From positions 1 to 25,935 of IMG/VR virus record IMGVR_UViG_3300021425_001956: a stretch of DNA of 25,935 nucleotides. The stretch is one strand, 5' to 3'. The notes under the pieces were generated by a model. That model made no database searches. It was not told where the DNA came from and saw nothing but the letters and a program-made list of their open reading frames with translations. The position numbers and the translations under genes were made by a program. This document shows, one piece after another, positions 2,705-24,159 of the stretch. How positions within the stretch are numbered: the first letter of the stretch is position 1; each line of letters starts with the position of its first letter. The stretch is from a virus.

Positions 2705-3147
2705 TGGATTTACAAAGATTACGCGAAGATTTAGAAGATGATGAAGGAGTGATGTATGAAATATACCTGGATCATTTGGGTCTGCCTACTTTTGGGATCG
2801 GTCATTTGGTACGAGAAGAAGATCCAGAATATGGATGTGATGTTGGCGAACCTGTATCAGAAGAACGAGTCGCTGAGGTCTTCGAACAAGATGTTAGAAT
2901 CACGATTGAAGATTGTGAAAAACTCTATGCCGACTTCCACGATCTTCCCGACGAAGCCAAACTCATCATTGCCAACATGTGCTTTAACCTTGGATATCCA
3001 AGACTTTCTAAATTTAAGGGAATGAAAGCAGGAGTGGATGCTCGTGATTGGAATCGTGCTGCAGACGAAATGGTCGATTCAAGATGGTACAATCAAGTGC
3101 CAAACAGAGCAGACCGCCTCGTACAAAGAATGAGAGCAATTGCATAA
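2704..3147 (+). CDS. e: T4-type lysozyme (endolysin, GH24)
   Basis: This 147-residue muramidase cleaves the MurNAc-GlcNAc bond of peptidoglycan at lysis. The catalytic triad of T4 lysozyme (E11, D20, T26) is present with identical spacing as E14 (DEG), D23 (YLDH) and T29 (PTFGIGHL). The C-terminal lobe has the usual RLSKFKGM and ADEMVDSRWYNQVPNRADRLVQRM. ATG 2704 overlaps the previous stop and starts just before the first helix; an in-frame start at 2689 would only add five residues inside the upstream gene. No signal peptide is seen, so export would need a holin. Confidence 0.94.
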   Translation: MDLQRLREDLEDDEGVMYEIYLDHLGLPTFGIGHLVREEDPEYGCDVGEPVSEERVAEVFEQDVRITIEDCEKLYADFHDLPDEAKLIIANMCFNLGYPRLSKFKGMKAGVDARDWNRAADEMVDSRWYNQVPNRADRLVQRMRAIA

Positions 3148-3154
3148 AAAACTG

Positions 3155-3183
3155 TGTACAACCTCTTAGAATTGTGTTATAAT
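3155..3183 (+). promoter_or_regulatory. Early-type promoter for gp43
   Basis: TGTACA (3155-3160), 17 bp, TATAAT (3178-3183), with TG at the extended -10 position and an A-run plus ACTG upstream. It lies between lysozyme and polymerase, about 20 bases before the polymerase start. It belongs to the nine-member promoter family in this window. Confidence 0.82.
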
Positions 3184-3203
3184 AGTAATGCATAGGAGGT
3201 TGT

Positions 3204-5660
3204 ATGTCTTTTTATACTAATTTTGACCGGCGCGGTAATTCCGTCCTGTATCGTGGGTACAACCATCAAGGTAAACCCATCATGACAAAGTACAAGCTCG
3301 AACCCGAGCTCTTTGTCCCTACTAAAACTCAAACTGAATGGCGTTCGCTCGATGGCACACCCGTCGCACCCGTTCAGTTTAATCATTTCAACGAAATGAA
3401 AGACTTCATGCAAAAGTATGAAGGCGTCGAAAACTTCAAGTACTACGGTCAAGACCGTGTACTATGGCAGTTTATTCAGAAAAAGTTTCCAAACGATATC
3501 GACTTTATTCCTGGTCTGATTAACGTAGTCAACCTCGATATCGAAGTACATTCAGAAGATGGCTTCCCCGAGCCTGATGAAGCTCTACACCCGATCACAG
3601 CGATTACTCTCAAGTCGAGTAAAGAATCTGTGTATCGTGTATGGGGTTGCGGTGACTACGACAAATCAAAATCGCCGCATACTCATCTTCGCATTCAGTA
3701 TACAAAGTGTGAAGATGAATATGAGTTGATGGAAAGATTCCTAAAATACTGGGCCTCGAGCTTTCCGGAAGTTCTGACCGGCTGGAATATTCGTATGTTT
3801 GATATTCCATACATCGTGAATCGTTGTTCTAAAAGATTGTTCGGCGAAGAGACTACAAGAAAGTTTCTTTCTCCATGGGCTACGATACGAGAAAAGACTG
3901 TACATCTCAAAACAAAGACGATGAAGACTCAGCAGATTTCTGGTATTTCTCAACTCGATTATATGGATTTGTTTCAGAAGTTTGGCTATTCGTATGGTCC
4001 TCAAGAATCGTATGCATTGAATCATATTGCACACGTCGTACTCGGCGAAAAGAAACTCTCGTATGCAGAATACGGTTCTCTTCGTAATCTCTATAAAGAA
4101 AACTTTCAACTCTATATTGACTACAACATCAAAGACGTTGAGCTCATTGATCGTATGGATGAAAAGCTCGATCTCATTGGTCTCGGCTTTACTCTGGCCT
4201 ATAAAGCCGGTGTAAACTTTACAGACATCTTTGGTACTACAGCCATATGGGATTCCATTATCTTTCGCGAACTGGCTAAACGTAAGATCGCAATACCTGG
4301 TCCACCGCCTCGCCAAGAACGTGAAGGCATCAATGTCAAGTTTGCAGGTGGTTATGTAAAAGAACCACAAGTCGGTGCTCATGACTGGGTAGTTTCCTTT
4401 GATTTAAATTCGCTGTATCCGAATATCATTGCTCAATGGAACATGTCACCTGAAACTCTGACAATGAATGGTACGAACATGTCGAAAGCTGCCAACGGTG
4501 TCGGCTTTGATAATAGTCGTGAAGGTGTCTTTCCTCTGCTTGTCAAACAGTATTATGCCGAACGTAAAGATGTAAAGAAGCAGATGATCGAATGGCAGAA
4601 AGAACAGCAGAAAGGTTCTACAAAAGAGATTGAAAAACAGATTGCTTCTCTTAATAACAAACAGATGGCAGTCAAGATCTTGATGAACTCTCTGTTCGGC
4701 GCTATCGGCAATAAGTGGTATCGTTATTTCGATCTTCGAGTTGCAGAAGGTATCACTTTGACTGGTCAGCATGTGATTAAGACATGTGAGAAAGCCATTA
4801 ACGAAGAGATGAATAAACTTCTCGAGACAAACGAAGATTATGTGATCGCAATCGATACAGATTCAGTCTATGTAAACTTCGAAGCGTTTGTCAAGAAGTT
4901 CAATCCAAAAGATCCTGTGAAATTCCTAGACGAATCGTGTAATAAACATTTTGCAAAGATACTCGAAAAGACTCTTGCAGATCTCTGTACAGAAATGAAT
5001 TGTTTCGAAAACCGTATGGTCATGGAACGTGAAGTCATTGCAGATCGTGGTATATGGACAGCAAAGAAGCGGTATATTCTCAATGTACATAACTCAGAAG
5101 GAGTACAGTACGATGAACCTAAGCTTAAAATTATGGGCATCGAGGCCATTAAGTCGTCGACCCCTGAAGTTTGTCGAACTAAGTTTAAGGAAATATTCAA
5201 GCTTATCATTCAGGCGTCTGAAGCGGATGTACAGAACTTCATACAGAAATTCAAACAAGATTTCAAATCGCTCCCACCCGAAGAAGTGGCTTTTCCACGG
5301 GGAGTCACGAAAATTACAGACTGGTCAGATCGGAAAACTGTCTACAAGAAAGGTACACCTATTCACGTGCGGGGTTCCCTCTTATATAACAAAGAAGCTA
5401 AGGCTCGAGGATTGACGGATAGGTACGAGCTTATCGGAAATGGTGATAAGATCAAATTTGCCTACCTCAAACTTCCCAATCATATCAAAGAAAATGTCAT
5501 CTCATTTCCTATGCACCTACCAACCGAGATGCAACTTCATCGATATATAGATTACGATAAGCAGTTTGATAAAACGTTCCTCGAGCCTTTGCGTTTTATC
5601 CTCGACGCGGTCGGGTGGTCTGCTGAAGAACGTGCAACACTCGAAGACTTTTTTGTATGA
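3204..5660 (+). CDS. 43: Family B DNA polymerase gp43
   Basis: The 818-residue replicative polymerase has 3'-5' exonuclease motifs LDIEVH (D112, E114), GWNIRMFD (D200) and YNIKD (D311). Its polymerase motifs are [13 protein letters not shown] (D400); [11 protein letters not shown] (491-500); and C, DTDSV (D551, D553). T4 gp43 has its first exonuclease acids at the same positions, 112 and 114. The C-terminus LEDFF resembles a clamp-binding tail. It is about 80 residues shorter than T4 gp43. The start is ATG 3204 after TAGGAGG, with a dedicated early promoter. It shows no intein, split or frameshift. Confidence 0.98.
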
Positions 5661-5666
5661 GTACTG

Positions 5667-5695
5667 TTTACATTTGCACGAAAACATGTTATAAT
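5667..5695 (+). promoter_or_regulatory. Early-type promoter
   Basis: TTTACA (5667-5672), 17 bp, TATAAT (5690-5695), with TG at 5687-5688. It sits directly after the polymerase stop, and AAGGAG and the start of the MazG-like gene follow within 21 bases. Confidence 0.85.
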
Positions 5696-5715
5696 ATATG
5701 TGAAGGAGATTTATC

Positions 5716-9941: not shown

Positions 9942-10958
9942 ATGAAGATCTTGATCACCGGCATGAACAAGCAACAGTGCACCGAAAACTTTTACAAGGG
10001 TTCACAGCTTAAAATTATTCCTTCACATATTTCTCTGATCGCATGCCTCAGAGATATGGGACATACCGTCGAACAGCGTATCGTCACCATCGGTGAAGAC
10101 CTTTCCTCATACGACAAAATTATTTGTTACATCCACAATCCATCAGGTTTTGCAGGCTTTGTGTATAATGCTTTATGGCTAATCAATGAAGTACCTGACT
10201 GTGTACTTGCATTTGATGACTGGCAGACTGACAGCATTTACAAAGGTCTTACCGCACTTGAAGATACTGAAAAACTTTTCCGTAAATATGTTCTCGATGG
10301 TCATAAGCATATACCTGATAACATTCGAGATTATGAAAAGCAATTGTTGCAAGGTATCTCAATTGTAAAACAGAAAAAGAATAAGATGTTGATCAGCGCA
10401 TTTGCTGGCGGTAATCTTACAAGACTGCTGGATTATCCTGAAGAACTTATGTTCTCTTTTAATCCAAACCCATATCATATCAACTTACAATCCAACTTCA
10501 ATCCACTCTTTGAAGAGAAAGCTCGTGTATTTAACTTTGCCGGGTTAATGCAAGATAAAACAAAGAAGTGGGTTAAAGACCAGAGCATCGGTGAATGGGA
10601 ACTCAAGAAATACGGTTCTCGAAAAGATGGTCAAGATCGTGTAACCGAACCAGAGATGGTCAACATATATGGACAGCAATGGGGTATCCTCATGCCAGGA
10701 TATTTCCATGCTGGCTCTGGCTGGTGGCGAGCAAGACCGCTTCAAGTTGCAGATGCCGGCTCGATTCTGATCGGCGATTGGAAAGAGATGGTGATCTACT
10801 ACGATGACGACGAACTCGCTTCTCTCAAAGGTCAGTGGATTACGTTGATGAGTGATAAACAGCTCGAAGAAGTAGCACACGCCCAAAAAGAAGCCATATA
10901 TAAAACACACCCGCTGGACAAAGGTGTACAGCAGGATGAGTTAAGGAGAATCCTATGA
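9942..10958 (+). CDS. Glycosyltransferase-like protein (GT-B-like)
   Basis: The 338-residue protein begins like a Rossmann-type domain (MKILITGMNKQQ, then SLIACLRDMGHTVEQR and YDKIICYIHNPSG). The second half contains AGSGWWRARPLQVADAGSILIGDWKEMV, the position where GT-B enzymes bind the sugar nucleotide (R-x-x-E/Q-x-x-x-x-G). Membership in a named GT family cannot be shown by eye. The mutase and epimerase that follow overlap head to tail, which suggests it uses the sugar they make. Target could be modified DNA, virion or cell surface. ATG 9942 has CGGAG upstream. Confidence 0.5.
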   Translation: MKILITGMNKQQCTENFYKGSQLKIIPSHISLIACLRDMGHTVEQRIVTIGEDLSSYDKIICYIHNPSGFAGFVYNALWLINEVPDCVLAFDDWQTDSIYKGLTALEDTEKLFRKYVLDGHKHIPDNIRDYEKQLLQGISIVKQKKNKMLISAFAGGNLTRLLDYPEELMFSFNPNPYHINLQSNFNPLFEEKARVFNFAGLMQDKTKKWVKDQSIGEWELKKYGSRKDGQDRVTEPEMVNIYGQQWGILMPGYFHAGSGWWRARPLQVADAGSILIGDWKEMVIYYDDDELASLKGQWITLMSDKQLEEVAHAQKEAIYKTHPLDKGVQQDELRRIL

Positions 10959-11965
10959 AGATATTAGTTGTAGGTGCGGGCTTTGCAGGTGCTACGGTTG
11001 CTCGCATTCTTGCAGAAGAAGGTCATGAGATTACGGTAATCGATAAACGTGATCACGTGGCTGGTAATGCGTATGACTATACAAACGAGTATGGCATTCG
11101 TGTACACAAATATGGTCCTCATCTCTTTCATACAAATAACAAGAAGGTCTTTGATTTTCTTGGTCGATTTACTGAATGGGTACCGTATCGTCATAAAGCA
11201 AAAGCTCAGCTTGAAGATGGTCGATATGTACCGTTTCCCGCAAATCGAATTACGAAAGAGATTGTAGGCGAAGAAAACATTCTCGACATTTTCTTCAGAC
11301 CGTATACAAGAAAGATGTGGGGTAAAGAACTTGAAGAGCTTGATCCGAGTATTATTAAGCGTGTACCTGTTAAAGATAATGACAATGAAGATTATTTTCC
11401 AAAAGATAATTACCAAGCGTTACCACTCTTTGGCTATACAGACTTGGTTACACGTATGCTCGACCATGAGAATATCGACGTAAGATTGAATGTGTCTTTC
11501 GATAAGGTATGGCTTAATTACTCGGATCATTGTTTCAACTCGATGCCAATCGACGAGTACTTTGATTTCAATCATGGTGAATTACCGTATCGTTCAATTA
11601 AATTCCACAATACAGATCTTCCGATGTCGAAGGTTCTTCCGACTACGACTGTAAACTTTACACATGATGGTCCATATACAAGAGTTACAGAATGGAAGAA
11701 CATGCCATGTCATGGTTACAATTCAAACTTTACGACATTGACATACGAAGAACCCTGTGATTATCGAGACAACGATATGGAAAGATACTATCCAGTCAAA
11801 GATGTCGACGGTGAGAATCGTGAGAGATACGAGAAATATAAAGAAATGATCAGTCCAAATATGACCTTCATCGGTCGTTGTGGTCAGTATGTTTATGTTG
11901 ACATGCATCAGGCGGTGAACTCAAGCATACAAGTTGCAGAGAAATTTATAAAGGAAAACACATGA
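10955..11965 (+). CDS. glf: UDP-galactopyranose mutase
   Basis: This FAD enzyme interconverts UDP-galactopyranose and UDP-galactofuranose; relatives also act on UDP-arabinopyranose. The 336-residue protein has the dinucleotide-binding GAGFAGA at 7-13, the family motif DHVAGNAYDY with HKYGPHLFHTNN, the FFRPYTRKMWGKELEELDPSIIKRVP segment, and the C-terminal FIGRCGQYVYVDMHQAV that closes the FAD site. Length is near the bacterial norm (about 370-390), slightly short. It overlaps both neighbours by four bases (ATGA), so all three are translated as one unit. Confidence 0.95.
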   Translation: MKILVVGAGFAGATVARILAEEGHEITVIDKRDHVAGNAYDYTNEYGIRVHKYGPHLFHTNNKKVFDFLGRFTEWVPYRHKAKAQLEDGRYVPFPANRITKEIVGEENILDIFFRPYTRKMWGKELEELDPSIIKRVPVKDNDNEDYFPKDNYQALPLFGYTDLVTRMLDHENIDVRLNVSFDKVWLNYSDHCFNSMPIDEYFDFNHGELPYRSIKFHNTDLPMSKVLPTTTVNFTHDGPYTRVTEWKNMPCHGYNSNFTTLTYEEPCDYRDNDMERYYPVKDVDGENRERYEKYKEMISPNMTFIGRCGQYVYVDMHQAVNSSIQVAEKFIKENT

Positions 11966-12720
11966 AAATTTCATTAACAGGTGCCAGTGGATTTATTGGC
12001 AATCATCTTCTGACAAAGCTGTGGGATGATGGACACGAAGTCATGAAGTGGGATCGTAAGAGCGGTCGGGATATCAAAGACTGGGAACTCGAAGGCTGTG
12101 ACTTTGTAGTTCATCTTGCTGCCGATGCAGATGTACGTCGTTCGATCCTTGAACCAGATCTGTACTGGGATAATAACGTCGAGACTACCAAACGTATTCA
12201 AGAAATTTGTAGAGTCAATCAAGTCCCGCTGGTCTATGCATCTTCTTCTTGTATTCATGCATGGCATAAATCGCCGTATGGTATCAGTAAGCGTGTCAAC
12301 GAGATCACAGCTTATACTACACCGTTTGGCGTCAATAATCAGGTCGGTCTTCGCTTTACGACAGTCTACGGTGATGGTGCTCGTGATACCATGTTTATGG
12401 GTAAGTTAATGAGAGGCGAAGTCAAGTACGCAACAAATCACGTTCGTGACTTTATTCATGTCGATGATGTTGTAAAAGCCATCATGATCTTTATAAATAC
12501 AGGTACCAAAGGTAAACTTCCAGCGTATGACGTTGGTACTGGAACTGGCCATATTGTATCTAAGCTCGCACAAATCAAATATCCGAATATCGAAATCCGA
12601 GAGGGTGACGACTGCGAAGCACAGGATAATACAGCAGACAATTCTGATCTAAGAGCACTCGGTTGGGAACCGACAATAAATGCTCGTGGCTATGTACAAA
12701 ACAATGGAAATGTGATATAA
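11962..12720 (+). CDS. NAD-dependent sugar epimerase/dehydratase (extended SDR)
   Basis: The 252-residue protein has the NAD motif GASGFIG at 7-13, LAADADVR, the serine strand YASSSC (92-97) and catalytic Y106-x3-K110 (SPYGISK). RDFIHVDD, typical of extended SDRs such as GalE and RmlB, follows. It likely acts on a nucleotide sugar, for example making the UDP-hexose or UDP-pentose used by the mutase upstream. It is shorter than GalE (about 340). The last codons hold the promoter for uvsX. Confidence 0.9.
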   Translation: MKISLTGASGFIGNHLLTKLWDDGHEVMKWDRKSGRDIKDWELEGCDFVVHLAADADVRRSILEPDLYWDNNVETTKRIQEICRVNQVPLVYASSSCIHAWHKSPYGISKRVNEITAYTTPFGVNNQVGLRFTTVYGDGARDTMFMGKLMRGEVKYATNHVRDFIHVDDVVKAIMIFINTGTKGKLPAYDVGTGTGHIVSKLAQIKYPNIEIREGDDCEAQDNTADNSDLRALGWEPTINARGYVQNNGNVI

Positions 12721-18315: not shown

Positions 18316-18323
18316 TATTTATA
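18316..18323 (-). promoter_or_regulatory. T4-type late promoter for the minus-strand gene
   Basis: The minus strand reads TATAAATA here, the T4 late promoter box recognised by gp55-loaded polymerase. It lies about 66 bases before the start of the 159-residue gene and directly abuts the -35 of the divergent early-type promoter at 18324. The octamer is AT-rich and some chance hits are expected in this window. Confidence 0.5.
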
Positions 18324-18352
18324 TTTACAAAGTCGACCATCTGTGATATAAT
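18324..18352 (+). promoter_or_regulatory. Early-type promoter of the tmRNA
   Basis: TTTACA (18324-18329), 17 bp, TATAAT (18347-18352), extended -10 TGA. Transcription would start near 18358-18361, just where the tmRNA acceptor piece begins. A plus-strand TATAAATA at 18352-18359 overlaps it and could add late expression. Confidence 0.85.
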
Positions 18353-18360
18353 ATAAATAG

Positions 18361-18416
18361 TTTTGAAGATGCTGAAGGTATACTGGACCCGGGGGCGGTA
18401 CCCGGCGCCTCCACCA
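18361..18416 (+). ncRNA. ssrA: tmRNA acceptor piece
   Basis: This half supplies the 3' strand of helix P2, the T-arm and the acceptor end. The T-stem is CCGGG (18389-18393) with CCCGG (18401-18405) around a seven-base loop GGCGGTA. CGCCTCC then ACCA closes it at 18416, so the CCA is encoded. The GGGGGCGGTACCCGG segment is what I recall as common in alphaproteobacterial tmRNA acceptor pieces. Confidence 0.9.
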
Positions 18417-18444
18417 AATCTCATGCCACAACGTGGTATTTTGT

Positions 18445-18575
18445 GGGGGCGAAATAGGATCGACAGGTATTGAGTCTTCAAAGTAGTAACTGCAAACGAT
18501 AACTTTGCACCTTTGGCTGCCGCAGCGTAGTCATTGGGCCCGCCGAGAGCCTCGAAACAGAATCTCGGCAACTTT
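18445..18575 (+). ncRNA. ssrA: tmRNA coding piece with degradation tag
   Basis: It begins GGGGGCGAAATAGGATCGACAG, close to the conserved tmRNA 5' end with its GGAT-CGAC D-loop sequence. The tag reads ANDNFAPLAAA then TAG. Only eight bases separate helix P2 from the resume codon, so the usual pseudoknot PK1 is missing. The linker between pieces (18417-18444) holds a 7-bp hairpin, ATGCCAC/GTGGTAT, likely removed during maturation. The 3' end is estimated. Confidence 0.88.
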
Positions 18576-18585
18576 AAGGATTATT

Positions 18586-19101
18586 ATGTTTCTATTTTGG
18601 TCTTACATTTCATATCTAATTTTAGCAACAATAGGTGCCACCTATGGTTTACATAGATATTGGGCTCATCGAAAAGGTGAGCGTAAGATTTGGTTCGAGT
18701 GGTTGTCTTTGGCATGTGCTCTACTAATCGGCGTCTATAAGCCAATCTCTTGGGTCGGTATTCACAGACTGCATCATAAGTATAGTGATACACCTCGAGA
18801 TCCTCATTCACCAATATATCAAGGATTTTGGAATGTATTTCTGTCAAGATGGAAAGGTCATATTCCCTATCATCTTGTAAAGGATTGTGTAAGAAATGAG
18901 CGTCTGAAGTTTTTTCAGAGATACGGTAAATATTTAATATGGCCAGTTATTCTTTTCTCACCACTTACAATTCTTTTTGGATATATTGGAATCGGTATAC
19001 TTAACACGGCAGGTCATTCGAATGGTCCATCAAATCATTGGTGGATAAATCTCTTTGCACCTTTCGAAGGAAATCACAAAGATCATCATGAAGGTTTATG
19101 A
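18586..19101 (+). CDS. Short fatty-acid desaturase-like membrane protein
   Basis: The 171-residue protein has the three histidine boxes of acyl desaturases: HRYWAH (box 1), HRLHH (GIHRLHHKYSDTPRDPHSP, box 2) and HKDHH (GNHKDHHEG, box 3), plus hydrophobic spans between them. These enzymes put a double bond in fatty acyl chains with a di-iron centre. It is much shorter than typical delta-9 desaturases (about 250-300) and ends right after box 3, so it may be minimal or degenerate. The frame extends upstream through the tmRNA, but ATG 18586 with AAGGA just before is the sensible start. Confidence 0.85.
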   Translation: MFLFWSYISYLILATIGATYGLHRYWAHRKGERKIWFEWLSLACALLIGVYKPISWVGIHRLHHKYSDTPRDPHSPIYQGFWNVFLSRWKGHIPYHLVKDCVRNERLKFFQRYGKYLIWPVILFSPLTILFGYIGIGILNTAGHSNGPSNHWWINLFAPFEGNHKDHHEGL

Positions 19102-20125
19102 TTTAAAAGACTGTCCTCAAATGATTACTGATCTCTTCTATGAAGAGATCGAAACAATTCAGAGGTCTGACCTTTTACTAAAACAAAATTATACGCTTGA
19201 AAGATTAAAGCTCGATGACATGTTGTCTTTCAATATACTTATTGATGATGACATCGATATCGTTTGCTTCGGTGGGCTGCAAAAGATAAGTGAAGAGGTT
19301 GCGAGAGTTTCATCGCGACATTATGTTTCTCAAAAATATGTAAAGACTTGGAAGCAAGATCGATTTAGACCAAACTGGCAGTATCTAGTGCCAAAACAAA
19401 TTCAACATGCATATGACTTAGGATACAAAGGTTTATTTTGGTCTGCTCACATCTATAAGAAAAAGTCTCTATTCGATCTTACGTGTAAGAATGCAGAAGA
19501 GTTTACTGACATAAAATTTACACCTTTACCCGGTTTGTACAATATATATGGCGTAGGACAGAGAGTTTGTCAGATCGGTGACTATGATTGCGGATTTGCA
19601 AATGAAAACGTTTTTCTTACTGATATTGAATTTGACAAATATAAAGATGAAATGTATGACATACTGAAAAACTATCCTAAAGCAAACGAAGGATGGGATG
19701 ATTCGAATCCATGGAAAGGTGAATGGATAGATGCTGATAGTGAAATCATTCACACTGTAAATCTCAATGAAGTATTACCCGAACATCCATTGATTCATCA
19801 TTTGTATGACTATTTTGAGGATATACATAAAGTCATGGTATGTAATGTGCTCAAAGGTCCGATACCAGAACATCACGATCAAAGTGAACATGCATTAAAA
19901 GACAACATGCATATTAAAATTAAACTTGACGGAGACTGGTCGAAGTTTTATGTAAGAGATCTGAAATACAATTGGAAAAAATATTTTCCTAACGATAAGA
20001 ATGTGGCTATATTTGATAATCAGAAAAATATACATGCTGTAGAATCCGGACAAATGTTGCTTATTGTTCCTTACGGTAAATTGAAAAGAGAAATATATGA
20101 ACGAGTTGATACAGAAAGTCGCTGA
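19088..20125 (+). CDS. Fusion: acyltransferase-like N-terminus and 2OG-Fe(II) oxygenase-like C-terminus
   Basis: The 345-residue protein has two parts. Residues 50-165 look GNAT-like: DDDIDIVCFGGLQ, then EEVARVSSRHYVSQKY with a helix and LGYKGLFWSAHIYKKKSLFDL. Residues 175-335 look like an aspartyl/asparaginyl hydroxylase-type cupin, with H262-x-D264 (EHHDQSEH), a second His at 316 (KNIHAVESGQ) and IKIKLDGDWSKFYV between. A Fe(II)/2OG oxygenase activity is plausible. Substrate unknown. ATG 19088 lies within the desaturase end (14-base overlap); the 3' end overlaps the next gene by 29 bases. Confidence 0.55.
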   Translation: MKVYDLKDCPQMITDLFYEEIETIQRSDLLLKQNYTLERLKLDDMLSFNILIDDDIDIVCFGGLQKISEEVARVSSRHYVSQKYVKTWKQDRFRPNWQYLVPKQIQHAYDLGYKGLFWSAHIYKKKSLFDLTCKNAEEFTDIKFTPLPGLYNIYGVGQRVCQIGDYDCGFANENVFLTDIEFDKYKDEMYDILKNYPKANEGWDDSNPWKGEWIDADSEIIHTVNLNEVLPEHPLIHHLYDYFEDIHKVMVCNVLKGPIPEHHDQSEHALKDNMHIKIKLDGDWSKFYVRDLKYNWKKYFPNDKNVAIFDNQKNIHAVESGQMLLIVPYGKLKREIYERVDTESR

Positions 20126-20921
20126 AGAAGGAATTGTAGTACTTAAAAATCAGCATATGTCTGACGAAGAGTTCTACCAGAAAAATCTAACGTGGGGTAA
20201 ACATCAAGCGTCTGGCATCCACGCATGTCATGAAGATTATCCTATCATATTTCGTGTCACAAATAAAAAGTTGCCTAACGGCAAACAAGGTCTGTTTAGT
20301 CGTGGCTTCTTAGATTGGCACTGTAATAATATGTTCTGCGTTGATCCAGAAGAAGTTGTATGTTTATGGGGTAAGAAGGTCATCAAAGATGCTCCTACTA
20401 TTTGGGCACATTGTACAAATATGTACCGAGACCTACCAGAAACTCTGAAAAAAGAATTGGATGATGTTTGGGTTACAATGTCCAATATCCATAACATCAA
20501 GGATGGTGGGCGGATCTATACCGGTGCAGGTGATCTCGATATGGAAGATGTAATCAAACTTGATAAGTGGAACTTCCGTACACGTGAGGGATTAGAAGCT
20601 GGGTTATTTGATCCGAACTTTAGTGCCAAACAACTGAAGTCGGGTCGGTATCTAATAAAGGTGAAAAAGAAGCTTGTGAGGATTCACCCAGTGACCGGAG
20701 AGAAAGTTCTATACTTCCCGTTTGGTCATATGTCAGATTTTCCACGTAAGGATGAGTTAATCGAGCGACTGATGCAACCACAATATATCTACACCCATGA
20801 ATGGGAAGAGGGTGACATCGTGTTTTCGGATCAGCTTATGACAATTCATAAACGTGATGCGACACTTGATACTGAAGAGAAAAGAGAATTGTACAGAACA
20901 ACATTCTACTACGATGTATAA
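20097..20921 (+). CDS. TauD/TfdA-like 2OG oxygenase homologue with altered metal motif
   Basis: The 274-residue protein follows the TauD layout: LDWHCNNMF (first metal motif, residues 73-80), IHPVTGEKVLYFPFGHMSDF (196-215), WEEGDIVFSDQLMTIHKRD (236-254, distal His 251) and RTTFY (R267, expected to bind 2-oxoglutarate). The first motif reads H75-x-N77 where the family has H-x-D, so the carboxylate ligand is replaced by Asn. Activity may be lost or changed. ATG 20097 overlaps the previous gene. The end overlaps the FkbM gene. Confidence 0.75.
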   Translation: MNELIQKVAEEGIVVLKNQHMSDEEFYQKNLTWGKHQASGIHACHEDYPIIFRVTNKKLPNGKQGLFSRGFLDWHCNNMFCVDPEEVVCLWGKKVIKDAPTIWAHCTNMYRDLPETLKKELDDVWVTMSNIHNIKDGGRIYTGAGDLDMEDVIKLDKWNFRTREGLEAGLFDPNFSAKQLKSGRYLIKVKKKLVRIHPVTGEKVLYFPFGHMSDFPRKDELIERLMQPQYIYTHEWEEGDIVFSDQLMTIHKRDATLDTEEKRELYRTTFYYDV

Positions 20922-21510
20922 TTTATTTAGATCAAAAAGTAAAAAACAAAGAGCTGCACACTTAAGATATTTTTTGGTGCACATGCTTTACAAATATCAA
21001 TTTCAGTTTGATACTTATGTTGATGTTGGTGCATGTAATAGTGTAGAGCTGAATCAATACTGCGATCTCTTTGACAATGTTGTAGGATTTGAACCGAATC
21101 CTTATGCGTCAATTAAATCTCGAGATAATCTAACTCTTTATAAAAATGCATTGTCTAATAGAGAGGAAGTCAGACTGTTTCATATCGATAAAACTACTCC
21201 ACATTTTTCGACAATGAATTGGGAAAAAATGAGAGAATATGTGCCGCGTGGTCATGAGTGGGAAGATATTGAAATTACTACAAAGAAACTCGATGACTTT
21301 GATCTTACACCAAATTGCATTAAGATTGATACTGAAGGTGAAGATGATGCTGTAGTTCAAGGAGCTCTTGAAACAATTCAAAGTTACAAGCCGATATTGT
21401 ACCTCGAGTTTATGAGTGACGAGACAAAACAGATTCTTATAGATATAGGATATAGCGTTGAATATTCAGAATGGATAGACAACTTCTTAATTCACAAGGA
21501 TTACCTATGA
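20914..21510 (+). CDS. FkbM-family methyltransferase
   Basis: The 198-residue SAM-dependent methyltransferase has YVDVGACNS (motif I, 35-43), VVGFEPNPYA with E60, a middle NALSNREEVRLFHI and CIKIDTEGEDDAVVQGA, the usual FkbM motif K-I-D-x-E-G. FkbM enzymes O-methylate sugars and natural products. A basic N-terminal helix (LFRSKSKKQRAAHLRYFL) precedes the domain. ATG 20914 overlaps the TauD-like stop; the end overlaps the next start (ATGA). It could methylate a sugar or hydroxyl made by its neighbours; that is inference. Confidence 0.88.
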   Translation: MYNLFRSKSKKQRAAHLRYFLVHMLYKYQFQFDTYVDVGACNSVELNQYCDLFDNVVGFEPNPYASIKSRDNLTLYKNALSNREEVRLFHIDKTTPHFSTMNWEKMREYVPRGHEWEDIEITTKKLDDFDLTPNCIKIDTEGEDDAVVQGALETIQSYKPILYLEFMSDETKQILIDIGYSVEYSEWIDNFLIHKDYL

Positions 21511-22130
21511 TTGATATGGTCAAAATTATCGACGACATCCCGTCATTTCAAGATGCGTGTCAGGAGTGTATGAAATACGGTGATGTTGATCTAGAATTAG
21601 ATTTGAAAAAGGTAACACACGAAGAGGTCGCTACTGTGCCATTACAGACTTGGCATCAGGATGGATCTCATGTAAGATATTTTCCAAAGTACAGCGCACT
21701 ATGGTGTGAAACGGCAAAGGAAGATGCACCAATTACACAGATCATATCAACAAGATTACCGGCAGTTATTGCAGAAAAATACATTGATGAAGAAGTTGTA
21801 ATGGATTTTAAAAAGACAATTGATGAAGGTTCATTCTTTAAATTTAAGAAAGAATCTCATGCTCGTCTTTATGCTATGAAAGCAAATAAAACGCCTATGC
21901 CTTTGATCGAAAAAGATGAGAGAGGTTACTACACAAGATGGTGTCCATTCATCAAAGATCCGGATAACAAATATGAACATCTTGGAATGATTATTCTTGC
22001 TCGAGATATTACAAACATTCAGTGGAAACCGAATCGACTTGTCATCATGGAGAATAAAGCAACATTACACAGACGTAAGCCTGGAACATATGATGGAGAC
22101 AGAGTACTGTGGAGAGCTTATATAAGGTAA
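21507..22130 (+). CDS. TauD/TfdA-like 2OG-Fe(II) oxygenase
   Basis: The 207-residue protein has an intact metal triad: H50-Q-D52 (TWHQDGSHVRYFPKY) and H188 (RLVIMENKATLHRRKPG), with R199 or R203 (DRVLWRAYIR) for 2-oxoglutarate. ITQIISTRLP and WKPNRLVIMEN match the core strands of TauD-like enzymes. Such enzymes hydroxylate small molecules or side chains; substrate unknown. It is shorter than TauD (283). ATG 21507 overlaps the FkbM stop (ATGA) and the stop overlaps the next ATG. Confidence 0.8.
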   Translation: MIDMVKIIDDIPSFQDACQECMKYGDVDLELDLKKVTHEEVATVPLQTWHQDGSHVRYFPKYSALWCETAKEDAPITQIISTRLPAVIAEKYIDEEVVMDFKKTIDEGSFFKFKKESHARLYAMKANKTPMPLIEKDERGYYTRWCPFIKDPDNKYEHLGMIILARDITNIQWKPNRLVIMENKATLHRRKPGTYDGDRVLWRAYIR

Positions 22131-22690
22131 TGGTCATGGGGGCAAGTAACGCCGACAATGACAATAAAACCTGGGTTGATTATCTTTCTTGCGATGGCTA
22201 TGTAGTACACAATGCAGCAGTGCGTGGCACGTCATGCGACGTACTCATCGATCAGTGGGAAAGTAACAAATGGTTCGAGCCGAATCTTGTTTTGCTAGAC
22301 ACTCCACCCCTGTTTCGCTTTCATCTTTTTGATATTGCAATAGGCGGTATCGGTCGAGATGTTCTCTATACAGACTGGTTAAAAGAATCCAAACTATATG
22401 CATGGTATAAAAAACAGTGGCCGTATAGAACTCGTGAGTCGTTTGACGTCGTTGTAAATTCACTTAATGATGCTTTAAATGACACACATAACAAAAGAGG
22501 TATGGAAACATTACATCGCAGACAGAGACAGCATGTCGATCATTTGAAACTTTTAGCGCATGTAATTGAATTGCCACAACCAAATGGTGATCTTGACGAA
22601 TTACACTATACGGAAGAAAGACATCAAGAAATAGCAGATATAGCAGAGACCATTATCAATGAACAAATACTTCACTCATCTCGCTCTTGA
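22130..22690 (+). CDS. SGNH/GDSL-like hydrolase
   Basis: The 186-residue protein starts with an SGNH block I, MVMGASNADN (Ser6), and ends its core with a block V, DELHYTEERHQE (D156, H159), the catalytic Asp-His pair. A strand, FEPNLVLLDTPP, lies between. Such enzymes are esterases or acetyl hydrolases, often acting on sugar O-acetyl groups. ATG 22130 overlaps the previous stop (TAATG); GTG 22109 would add seven residues and is an alternative start. The 3' end overlaps the next gene by 32 bases. Confidence 0.7.
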   Translation: MVMGASNADNDNKTWVDYLSCDGYVVHNAAVRGTSCDVLIDQWESNKWFEPNLVLLDTPPLFRFHLFDIAIGGIGRDVLYTDWLKESKLYAWYKKQWPYRTRESFDVVVNSLNDALNDTHNKRGMETLHRRQRQHVDHLKLLAHVIELPQPNGDLDELHYTEERHQEIADIAETIINEQILHSSRS

Positions 22691-23654
22691 TTACGATTCA
22701 GAATCTCTGATAGAAGAATCAAAGACTGCGACGTATAAGCCATTTGAAAGTGGCTATGATAATGGAACGTTCTTTGCACATGCACCAACATGGTTACAAG
22801 GTCGTGTTACTCAATTTGATGATTTTCCTGAAATTAAAAGACTTACTGATTTCATTGCTCATAAAATTAACTCGAAAGATGTACGACCTCGTTTCTATAA
22901 ACAAGAAGCGAACACTGCTGTTCCCATGCATAGAGACCAAAATACAAAATGTTGCGTTAACATCGTATTGTCAGAAGATGCCGCACCAATAGTTTGGGAA
23001 GACATAGGACCAATATCGTATGACTGTGCTCTTTTAAATATCACAGAAAGCCATGAAGTACCAGCTCATCCTCATGAAAGACTTCTTTTAAAGTTTTCGA
23101 TATTTGACGTGACATATGAAGAAGCAGTTAAAAGATGGACAACGCCTATTATAAAAATTGGAGAGGTAGATCTAGACCTATTGCTTTTAGAATCTGATAC
23201 AGTGGAATATGACGGGCAAATATGCCTTCAAGGGGTTAAAGGCAATCTTGATCCTTATTTAGGAATAGGTCAAGCTGGTGGATATAATAGTTGGGAAAGA
23301 CAACAAAAACATAGTTATAAATCTGAGGAATTCAACATACCTATATTCGACTTGAAAAATATAAATGAAGCACTTACAAAGTTTGGTATGGTTCACACGC
23401 GCCTAATGACTGTAAAACCGAAGTCGTGTTATTCTTACCATGTTGACTCTAGAAAAAGACTACATATTCCACTCGAAACAAATGAACACTGTTGGTTTAT
23501 TATTGATAAAGAGATGCATCATTTGCCAGCTGATGGCTCCGTTTATTTGGTTGACACAATGCTACCGCATACGTTTATAAATTGTGGTTCAGAACCTAGA
23601 ACACATATAGTGTCTCAGTCGATAATCAATCCAAATTTATTTAATCTATCATAA
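22659..23654 (+). CDS. Tandem-domain 2OG-Fe(II) oxygenase-like protein
   Basis: The 331-residue protein contains two cupin-type oxygenase-like units. Unit 1 has H91-R-D93 (VPMHRDQNTKCCVNI), H132 (ESHEV) and R141 (ERLLLKF). Unit 2 has H261-V-D263 (YSYHVDSRKRLHIPL), H304 (LPHTFINCG) and R314. Unit 2 resembles Asp/Asn beta-hydroxylase domains, and unit 1 matches the minus-strand protein at 23615-24106. The whole would be a duplicated or fused oxygenase. ATG 22659 is in the SGNH gene end. It runs tail to tail into the minus-strand gene with a 40-base overlap. Confidence 0.68.
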   Translation: MNKYFTHLALDYDSESLIEESKTATYKPFESGYDNGTFFAHAPTWLQGRVTQFDDFPEIKRLTDFIAHKINSKDVRPRFYKQEANTAVPMHRDQNTKCCVNIVLSEDAAPIVWEDIGPISYDCALLNITESHEVPAHPHERLLLKFSIFDVTYEEAVKRWTTPIIKIGEVDLDLLLLESDTVEYDGQICLQGVKGNLDPYLGIGQAGGYNSWERQQKHSYKSEEFNIPIFDLKNINEALTKFGMVHTRLMTVKPKSCYSYHVDSRKRLHIPLETNEHCWFIIDKEMHHLPADGSVYLVDTMLPHTFINCGSEPRTHIVSQSIINPNLFNLS

Positions 23655-24106
23655 ACTTCTTCCCAAGGATGTCTTAAACAAAATTTAAGAATCAATCTAT
23701 GGTTTGGATCCTTTTCAACTCCATGCATCTTTTGTCCTACTTGGATGAATGCACATTCATACGGATAGGGTTTATGCTCTATGTGAATCACGGGAATTGT
23801 GTCAAGTAAGTTAATGTTAATTGACACCATATTGTCTTCGTCTTTATGGTGTTGTAACAAAGTATTCGGAAATTGATAAGAGAATCTAGGGAAGTTATTC
23901 ATACCATAAATATTCAGGTCCATCTCAACTTCTTTTGTAAGTTCCTTTAAAGGACTATCATCTTTTATCATAAGCTGATACCAAAATAATTCTTGTCTTC
24001 TAGGCACAGACCAATGCCATTGGCCTCGTTGAATATTCTCGTAGAATATACCTCGCCATTTTTCTTTATTAATTTCGTAATCAAGGTGAATTAAATTTTT
24101 TTTCAT
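23615..24106 (-). CDS. 2OG-Fe(II) oxygenase-like protein, minus strand
   Basis: The 163-residue protein has H87-K-D89 (LLQHHKDEDNMVSINI), H128 (QKMHGVEKDPN) and R137 (HRLILKF). The H-x-V-x4-P-x2-R-L-x-L-K-F block is shared with unit 1 of the gene at 22659, so the two are paralogues facing each other. The start is at 24106-24104; no good Shine-Dalgarno is seen, only A-rich sequence. A TATAAATA box on the minus strand at 24152-24159 lies about 46 bases upstream, suggesting late expression. Substrate unknown. Confidence 0.72.
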   Translation of the reverse strand: MKKNLIHLDYEINKEKWRGIFYENIQRGQWHWSVPRRQELFWYQLMIKDDSPLKELTKEVEMDLNIYGMNNFPRFSYQFPNTLLQHHKDEDNMVSININLLDTIPVIHIEHKPYPYECAFIQVGQKMHGVEKDPNHRLILKFCLRHPWEEVYDRLNKFGLIID

Positions 24107-24123: not shown

Positions 24124-24152
24124 TTTACATTGTGGTGAAAGTATGATATAAT
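24124..24152 (+). promoter_or_regulatory. Early-type promoter
   Basis: TTTACA (24124-24129), 17 bp, TATAAT (24147-24152), extended -10 TGA, T-run upstream. It drives the gene at 24182 and shares its last -10 base with the opposing late-type box. Confidence 0.87.
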
Positions 24153-24159
24153 ATTTATA
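24152..24159 (-). promoter_or_regulatory. T4-type late promoter for the minus-strand oxygenase gene
   Basis: The minus strand reads TATAAATA, with transcription directed left toward the gene starting at 24106. It overlaps the plus-strand early -10 box by one base. The same arrangement occurs at 18316-18329. Confidence 0.5.

Follow-up and report, generated by a model that had tools for sequence, protein, structure and literature searches.

Few unexplained genes are commoner in marine T4-like phages than those for 2-oxoglutarate (2OG) oxygenases, and the virus record IMGVR_UViG_3300021425_001956 raises the question of what a phage might do with many of them at once. Its positions 1 to 25,935 (hereafter the window, the whole 25,935-base stretch that we analysed) come from a T4-like phage and hold a compact block with some ten enzyme parts, as many as six of them iron-dependent oxygenases. 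The others are a fatty-acid desaturase, an acyltransferase, a methyltransferase and a hydrolase. With a probability of about 0.5, we read this block as a modular decoration pathway that the phage expresses late, its probable target being an acylated compound of the envelope or one associated with the virion. A preliminary description of the window had proposed a small biosynthetic or modification pathway at this locus; that remains the best reading, and its units and gene order were upheld. Dozens of further marine viruses, some of them cultured on Pelagibacter, an abundant bacterium of the ocean, have related blocks in which the parts are rearranged and swapped.

That the genes belong together is seen from their linkage. 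To avoid circularity, we searched by the desaturase alone, which gave 50 lineages once redundancy at 90% protein identity had been removed. A 2OG family of the cluster lay within 6 kb of the desaturase in 46 of the 50, two or more such families did so in 40, and a GNAT acyltransferase in 28. By contrast, among 349 overlapping 12-kb control windows drawn from HTVC008M, S-SM2, Phage C48C1 and Mosig (outside its own cluster), 6.9% contained one cluster 2OG family, and none contained two or a GNAT. The contrast is large, and the clustering is not by chance. A second search, by the N-terminal half of the tandem 2OG protein (tanN), yielded 29 lineages, many on contigs that were cut short, with at least two 2OG units in 24, a GNAT in 20 and the desaturase in 15. 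Of all the partners, the desaturase recurs most constantly. With several 2OG families linked to a single desaturase and a single acyltransferase across dozens of lineages, many separate mysteries become one testable pathway.

Gene order tells a similar story. All eight genes of the block stand in the same order, at protein identities of 67–98%, in the relatives L003/L004 (a near-identical phage from two samples), L005/L010 and L040; at least three further phage species share this arrangement. It is partly kept in L015, L025 and L036/L037. Measured against L003, cluster genes with a computable dS have dN/dS ratios of 0.02–0.13. More distant relatives keep a core (desaturase, GNAT, TauD-like protein and two small 2OG proteins) and permute, fuse or swap the remainder.

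The preliminary description placed the cluster at 19088–24106, where six H-x-D/N...H units are spread over five genes; these open reading frames and their motifs were confirmed, with the ligands conserved in family alignments, but the desaturase gene just before them (18586–19101, plus strand) belongs to the block as well and is its first gene. Plus-strand genes overlap end to start, as had been noted, and from the desaturase to the tandem protein they do so by 4–32 bases (taking fkbM from ATG 20914 and tauD2 from ATG 21507). Both gene arms are preceded by TATAAATA, the core of T4 late promoters, and late expression of the block is therefore likely, as far as sequence motifs can indicate. One such T4-type late-promoter-like motif (18352–18359, plus strand) is upstream of the transfer-messenger RNA (tmRNA) and the plus-strand operon, at a relative position that is equal in L003, L005, L012, L040 and L023; another (24152–24159, minus strand) lies about 50 nucleotides (nt) upstream of the minus-strand gene and has an equivalent in L040. 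A further copy heads the opposite gene at 18323, and the window holds five copies in total, compared with 1.6 expected. The tmRNA itself (18320–18573, plus strand) is a permuted, two-piece RNA of the alphaproteobacterial type (RF01849, 106 bits, E = 4e-28; RF04321, 85 bits) that ARAGORN did not detect. It lies directly 5′ of the desaturase, as it does in L003, L005, L040, L023, L024, L027, L033 and L034, and is possibly the first transcript of the operon. Two-piece tmRNAs in phages were already known (PMC9004378).

A cultured phage offers a second view of such a cluster. Mosig EXVC030M (MT647606), cultured with Pelagibacter ubique HTCC1062 as its host, has a related two-arm cluster of 16 kb at 54.7–71.3 kb, beside tail fibres and with GT8 and aminotransferase genes. 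Its first arm encodes two Asp/Arg hydroxylases, a GNAT, a methylase, a TauD protein, a peroxiredoxin, a flavin mononucleotide (FMN) reductase, an aminotransferase and a desaturase, and its second arm nitroreductases, radical S-adenosylmethionine (SAM) genes of the MoaA-like type, an aminotransferase, a carbamoyltransferase and a methyltransferase. The desaturase, the Asp/Arg hydroxylases, the GNAT and a TauD with an H-x-N motif are shared with the window, as is an arrangement in overlapping arms that have promoter motifs of the late type between them: the palindromic stretch between the Mosig arms carries TATAAATA copies in both directions, although Mosig DNA is AT-rich and single copies there mean little. 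Mosig differs in its added aminotransferases, FMN reductase, peroxiredoxin, nitroreductases, MoaA-like radical SAM genes and carbamoyltransferase, in having the GNAT and the hydroxylase as separate genes and in its position by tail fibres; no homologue of tanN or of the minus-strand protein was detected in its 54.7–71.3 kb. Its annotated tmRNA is located elsewhere in the genome. Genes on the flanks of the L036/L037 core run collinear with those of Mosig (58–75% identity), the L036 block adjoins tail-fibre genes, and that of L037 abuts gp13, gp14 and gp15. The pelagimyophage host recognition cluster is a hypervariable region with tail fibres between VrlC and gp14 (PMC7029224), and the blocks of Mosig, L036 and L037 lie within it.

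On the proposed mechanism, a late transcript would carry the tmRNA, the desaturase, the GNAT–2OG fusion, TauD1, FkbM, TauD2, SGNH and the tandem 2OG protein, with the convergent 2OG gene expressed alongside. Provided that these enzymes act on one compound, and in this order, the membrane desaturase would desaturate an acyl chain, the GNAT domain would acylate an amino group (by N-acylation or N-acetylation), the 2OG enzymes would hydroxylate several carbons, FkbM would add a methyl and SGNH would remove or transfer an acyl group. The target would be an acylated envelope compound of the infected cell (a glycolipid, aminolipid or surface glycan) or a compound carried by the virion, and the effect would be altered surface recognition by phages. 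We favour such a target over a free metabolite because related versions adjoin tail fibres and glycosyltransferases, because the promoters are of the late type and because genes for a UDP-galactopyranose mutase and an epimerase lie 6–8 kb upstream of the block. An OlsB/OlsC-like ornithine-lipid pathway, with an acyltransferase of the OlsB type and a lipid substrate, was considered as one possibility; Pfam did not match the GNAT domain. It would be a bolder step, and we think an unlikely one, to see here a kind of mobile viral module not described before, in which a small desaturase, a GNAT and a varying 2OG set with one unusual H-x-N member would make new, lineage-specific hydroxylated and N-acylated lipids or glycolipids late in infection, for competition between phages at the surface of abundant ocean bacteria. 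The cultured pair of Mosig and P. ubique HTCC1062 makes the product of a related version accessible to test.

The enzyme families of the individual genes were examined by profile, fold and homology. The desaturase is a small fatty-acid desaturase of 171 amino acids (PF00487, 4e-10, 40.2 bits against a cut-off of 29.7) with three hydrophobic stretches and the His boxes HRYWAH, HRLHH and NHKDHH, all three kept in 11 homologues; TAAGGA, which resembles a ribosome-binding site, precedes its ATG at 18586. The fusion protein that follows (fus; 19088–20125, plus strand) comprises a GNAT domain (about 19088–19576) and a C-terminal 2OG-like unit (about 19577–20125). Pfam gave no match for the GNAT domain, but the AlphaFold2 (AF2) model (predicted local distance difference test score, pLDDT, 92.8) confirms the fold, with a VIA Z score of 11.1 and scores of 10–11 to many GNATs. 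The C-terminal unit is a candidate 2OG domain by its conserved motif, H262-x-D264...H316, of which H-x-D...H is kept in five of five homologues; its fold is unconfirmed, as neither Pfam, nor the profile of PDB sequences, nor hhalign against three families supported a 2OG assignment.

The presence of an FkbM methyltransferase, named in the preliminary description, was confirmed: the gene (20914–21510, plus strand) encodes an FkbM-family SAM methyltransferase by its profile matches (PF05050, 2e-11, 44.7 bits against 22.7; TIGR01444, 39.4 bits against 37.7). Its ATG at 20914 overlaps the tauD1 stop by 8 nt, and the reading frame can be extended to a GTG at 20854. TauD2 (21507–22130, plus strand) is a short TauD-like oxygenase (PF02668, 7e-9, 36.4 bits against a cut-off of 27) whose reading frame runs from 21471 and whose ATG at 21507 overlaps the fkbM stop as ATGA; H62, D64 and H200 of its H62-x-D64...H200 triad, along with R211 and R215, are invariant in eight homologues. 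The next gene (22109–22690, plus strand, GTG start) encodes an SGNH/GDSL-like hydrolase or transferase. This putative assignment is supported by motifs invariant in the family alignment, including a GASN block and D163-x-x-H166, but profiles add one weak GDSL match, with PF13472 reached by one of four members at 0.0097.

The nearest solved relatives of TauD1 and of part of the tandem protein come from small-molecule chemistry. TauD1 (20097–20921, plus strand) is a TauD/TfdA-family oxygenase (PF02668, 7e-26, 92.1 bits against a cut-off of 27) whose closest solved relatives are ScoE (1.3e-11) and CarC. In its triad, H75-x-N77...H251, Asn replaces the metal-binding Asp and aligns with the Asp of ScoE. 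All seven TauD1 homologues examined, that of Mosig included, have H-x-N, and such sustained conservation speaks against simple decay. TauD proteins with W-H-x-N occur across divergent phages (the window, L015, L025, L023, L040 and Mosig), and WHTN is also present in another phage 2OG-like protein, at 11600–12397 of L030. The tandem protein (22659–23654, plus strand) joins tanN to a C-terminal half, tanC, of the Asp/Arg-hydroxylase family (PF05118, 3e-8, 33.9 bits against 22.6), with ligands H91-x-D93...H132..R141 in tanN and H261-x-D263...H304..R314 in tanC. Among the units checked, the PF05118 match over the cut-off is confined to tanC: the minus-strand protein and fus had none, and tanN reached 0.022 in one homologue only. 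The tanC profile matches the beta-hydroxylase Cpz10 (7v4f, 1.6e-26) and a proline cis-4-hydroxylase (4p7w).

These relationships bear on an unlikely alternative, in which the block makes a free or secreted small molecule, such as a hydroxylated N-acyl amino acid or an isonitrile-like lipid, that serves as an antibiotic, signal or metallophore. ScoE acts in isonitrile lipopeptide synthesis and Cpz10 in caprazamycin synthesis, relatives of the block carry carbamoyltransferase and radical SAM genes, and a secondary metabolite has been proposed for the S-SSM6a cluster (PMC7824862). Yet in every version examined no scaffold-forming enzyme (ligase, non-ribosomal peptide synthetase, polyketide synthase, precursor peptide or carrier protein) was seen, and a slow secreted product would be of little gain to a lytic phage. 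TauD1 has H-x-N where ScoE has H-x-D, no ScoA–D partners were seen, and we rejected TauD1 as a ScoE isonitrile synthase at 47.6 bits against the NF049937 equivalog cut-off of 400. Cpz10 (7v4f/7v4m; PMC9814697) is an actinobacterial nucleoside-antibiotic enzyme, although by sequence profile no solved protein is nearer to tanC and although it ranks high among the structures similar to the minus-strand protein. That ScoE and Cpz10 tailor small acyl or nucleoside compounds supports a decoration pathway as well.

The gene that converges on the operon (minus; 23615–24106, minus strand) encodes a single-domain 2OG oxygenase with H87-x-D89...H128..R137. Pfam gave no match, but its AF2 model (16 sequences, pLDDT 91.3) aligns with 2OG oxygenases over 130–155 residues, with VIA Z scores of 12.9 to ALKBH6, 12.8 to Cpz10, 12.8 to proline 3-hydroxylase and 12.0 to AspH; PHD2 and EF-Tu prolyl hydroxylase are among the other fold neighbours. 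With both a fold match and a conserved H-x-D...H, it belongs to the double-stranded beta-helix fold of 2OG oxygenases. The tanN unit is homologous to minus (hhalign probability 98.3; 29–33% BLAST identity), hhalign matched tanN weakly to tanC, and it gave no significant match between minus and tanC. Metal ligands are invariant in 16 minus, 13 tanN and 9 tanC homologues. TauD2, tanN, tanC and minus are well supported as 2OG oxygenases with a full triad. Profile, fold or homology therefore places at least five of the six 2OG-like units described earlier inside the 2OG/cupin fold; the fus C-terminal unit has an unconfirmed fold, and TauD1 departs by its Asn.

A fold shared with PHD2, AspH and EF-Tu prolyl hydroxylase invites another explanation: the small 2OG enzymes could hydroxylate residues of tail fibres or host proteins, with the GNAT, FkbM and SGNH proteins adding or trimming marks and no small-molecule pathway involved. 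It would accord with the tail-fibre genes beside the Mosig and L036 versions, with the late-type promoter motifs and with the ability of minus to stand alone. We nevertheless regard it as doubtful. The membrane desaturase has no obvious role in protein hydroxylation, the window block is not by tail genes, and a fold held in common does not reveal a substrate.

Comparison with relatives shows how the set is rearranged. In L015 the row reads fus, tauD1, tauD2, SGNH, tanN, minus and tanC, without FkbM; tanN and tanC, fused in the window, are separate genes there, and tanN is instead fused to the minus homologue (3061–4041, 4038–4526), which has changed strand. L025/L026 have desaturase, fus, SGNH, tauD1, tauD2 and tanN, faced by minus. 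L036/L037 have only five overlapping genes on one strand (desaturase, GNAT, TauD2, tanN and minus), a core found in the same order in L065 and L067–L069. Swapped-in genes include radical SAM genes in L024 and L034, methyltransferases in L023 and, in L033, a carbamoyltransferase (1e-68) that is 56% identical to that of Mosig and a nitroreductase-like gene, recognised as such by its 36% identity to an annotated nitroreductase gene of Mosig. Single genes also seem to have moved: tauD1 and minus share 92–94% nucleotide identity with L003, which exceeds the 70–82% of neighbouring genes (71–82% among the other cluster genes) and suggests that these two were recently exchanged between phages.

Such turnover, with accessory genes that differ strongly among relatives, the probable exchange of tauD1 and minus and a tmRNA-adjacent site that recurs, is what might be expected of a loose set of independent auxiliary metabolic genes (TauD for sulfonate use, the desaturase for membrane fluidity) gathered in a tolerant, hypervariable tmRNA site. 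We find this improbable: unrelated genes would not be expected to show overlapping frames, lineage-specific fusions or a desaturase–2OG linkage that holds in 46 of 50 lineages but only 7% of control windows. Hypermodification of DNA or RNA bases by 2OG enzymes with further decoration is highly improbable and was rejected for DNA, as no Tet/JBP match of note, base glucosyltransferase or kinase partner was found, the profiles point to TauD and Asp/Arg hydroxylases and the desaturase has no role there, despite AlkB-family structures among the fold neighbours of minus and a thymidylate synthase ThyX gene near the block.

The decoration pathway is supported by the kept gene order, the low dN/dS, the varied fusions, the desaturase–2OG linkage and the added tailoring genes. 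Several observations weigh against it. The window block contains no glycosyltransferase, ligase or carrier protein, and it lies outside the host recognition cluster, after the replication genes. In L032 minus has no visible partners, and in L029/L030 genes of the minus and tanN type sit among replication genes, so at least some units can function away from the block. Furthermore, the linkage test relied on a small control set of overlapping windows and on profiles trained with members of the cluster.

The preliminary description also saw the concentrated 2OG set as a departure from marine T4-like phages with single 2OG oxygenases, but such clusters have precedents. The Pelagibacter phage HTVC008M (NC_020484), a pelagimyophage, has four adjacent, overlapping 2OG-Fe(II) oxygenase genes, gp069–gp072, in the host recognition region between its tail/structural block and gp13; their annotations differ, naming phytanoyl-CoA dioxygenase and 2OG-Fe(II) types, the window-family profiles detected none of them, and no desaturase is annotated in the stretches inspected. 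At 63198–65157 of the same genome (L167/L168), the genes for a 2OG oxygenase and a tryptophan halogenase (PrnA) overlap and are flanked by the terminase genes. For S-SSM6a-like cyanophages, a cluster of 8–12 genes for amino-acid/sugar modification has been proposed to serve capsule decoration or a secondary metabolite (Iyer et al. 2021, PMC7824862), and its listing includes several 2OG enzymes, carbamoyltransferases, a halogenase and HAD phosphatases. It resembles the window block in gathering several 2OG oxygenases and methyltransferases in one phage cluster, and carbamoyltransferases occur in the relatives L033 and Mosig. The window block has a desaturase, a GNAT and an SGNH protein instead, and none of its eight genes corresponds to the S-SSM6a core (carbamoyltransferase, halogenase and HemK-like methylase), a distinction that we draw from the published description. 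In the open-access literature on phage clusters with multiple 2OG enzymes, PMC7824862 was the sole direct precedent found, and the portions of PMC7029224 and PMC7892664 available to us do not describe a module of the window type. The constant desaturase–GNAT–2OG core distinguishes the present family from S-SSM6a, and we did not find it described in the open literature searched.

The phage affiliation of the window follows from genes for a family B polymerase, UvsX, a DnaB-like helicase, ThyX, a cell-wall hydrolase (CWH) and DUF932 proteins. By its polymerase the closest isolate is Phage C48C1 of the Kyanoviridae (52.7% identity); the window DNA had no similarity match among isolated phages, and neither did tblastn searches of them with the minus, TauD2, fus and SGNH proteins and the L036/L037 homologues. 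The block is flanked by gp41, ThyX and CWH genes and by DUF932 genes. The UDP-galactopyranose mutase (PF03275, 1e-54) and the NAD-dependent epimerase are O-antigen-type sugar genes at 9942–12720, in the replication region, and are preceded by a gene for a 338-residue protein. L040 (NZKY01000164.1), which has the full cluster, is filed in an Opitutia metagenome-assembled genome (MAG) and resembles a phage contig; L041 (JABJFP010000323.1), filed in a Euryarchaeota MAG, is phage-like and has four 2OG-like genes in a row. A pattern-based scan for a cellular origin through the minus family, in which a missing hit is weak evidence, returned only two contigs, both binned in MAGs and both with phage-type cluster genes. 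Just upstream of the tmRNA in L003, a gene at 4683–5696 (plus strand) encodes a protein with a signal peptide that looks by sequence like a BMP-family ABC-transporter binding protein; no such gene was seen in the window. Two phages that carry related clusters have a glutamine riboswitch (RF01739), at 3568–3616 of L033 and 8459–8507 of L027.

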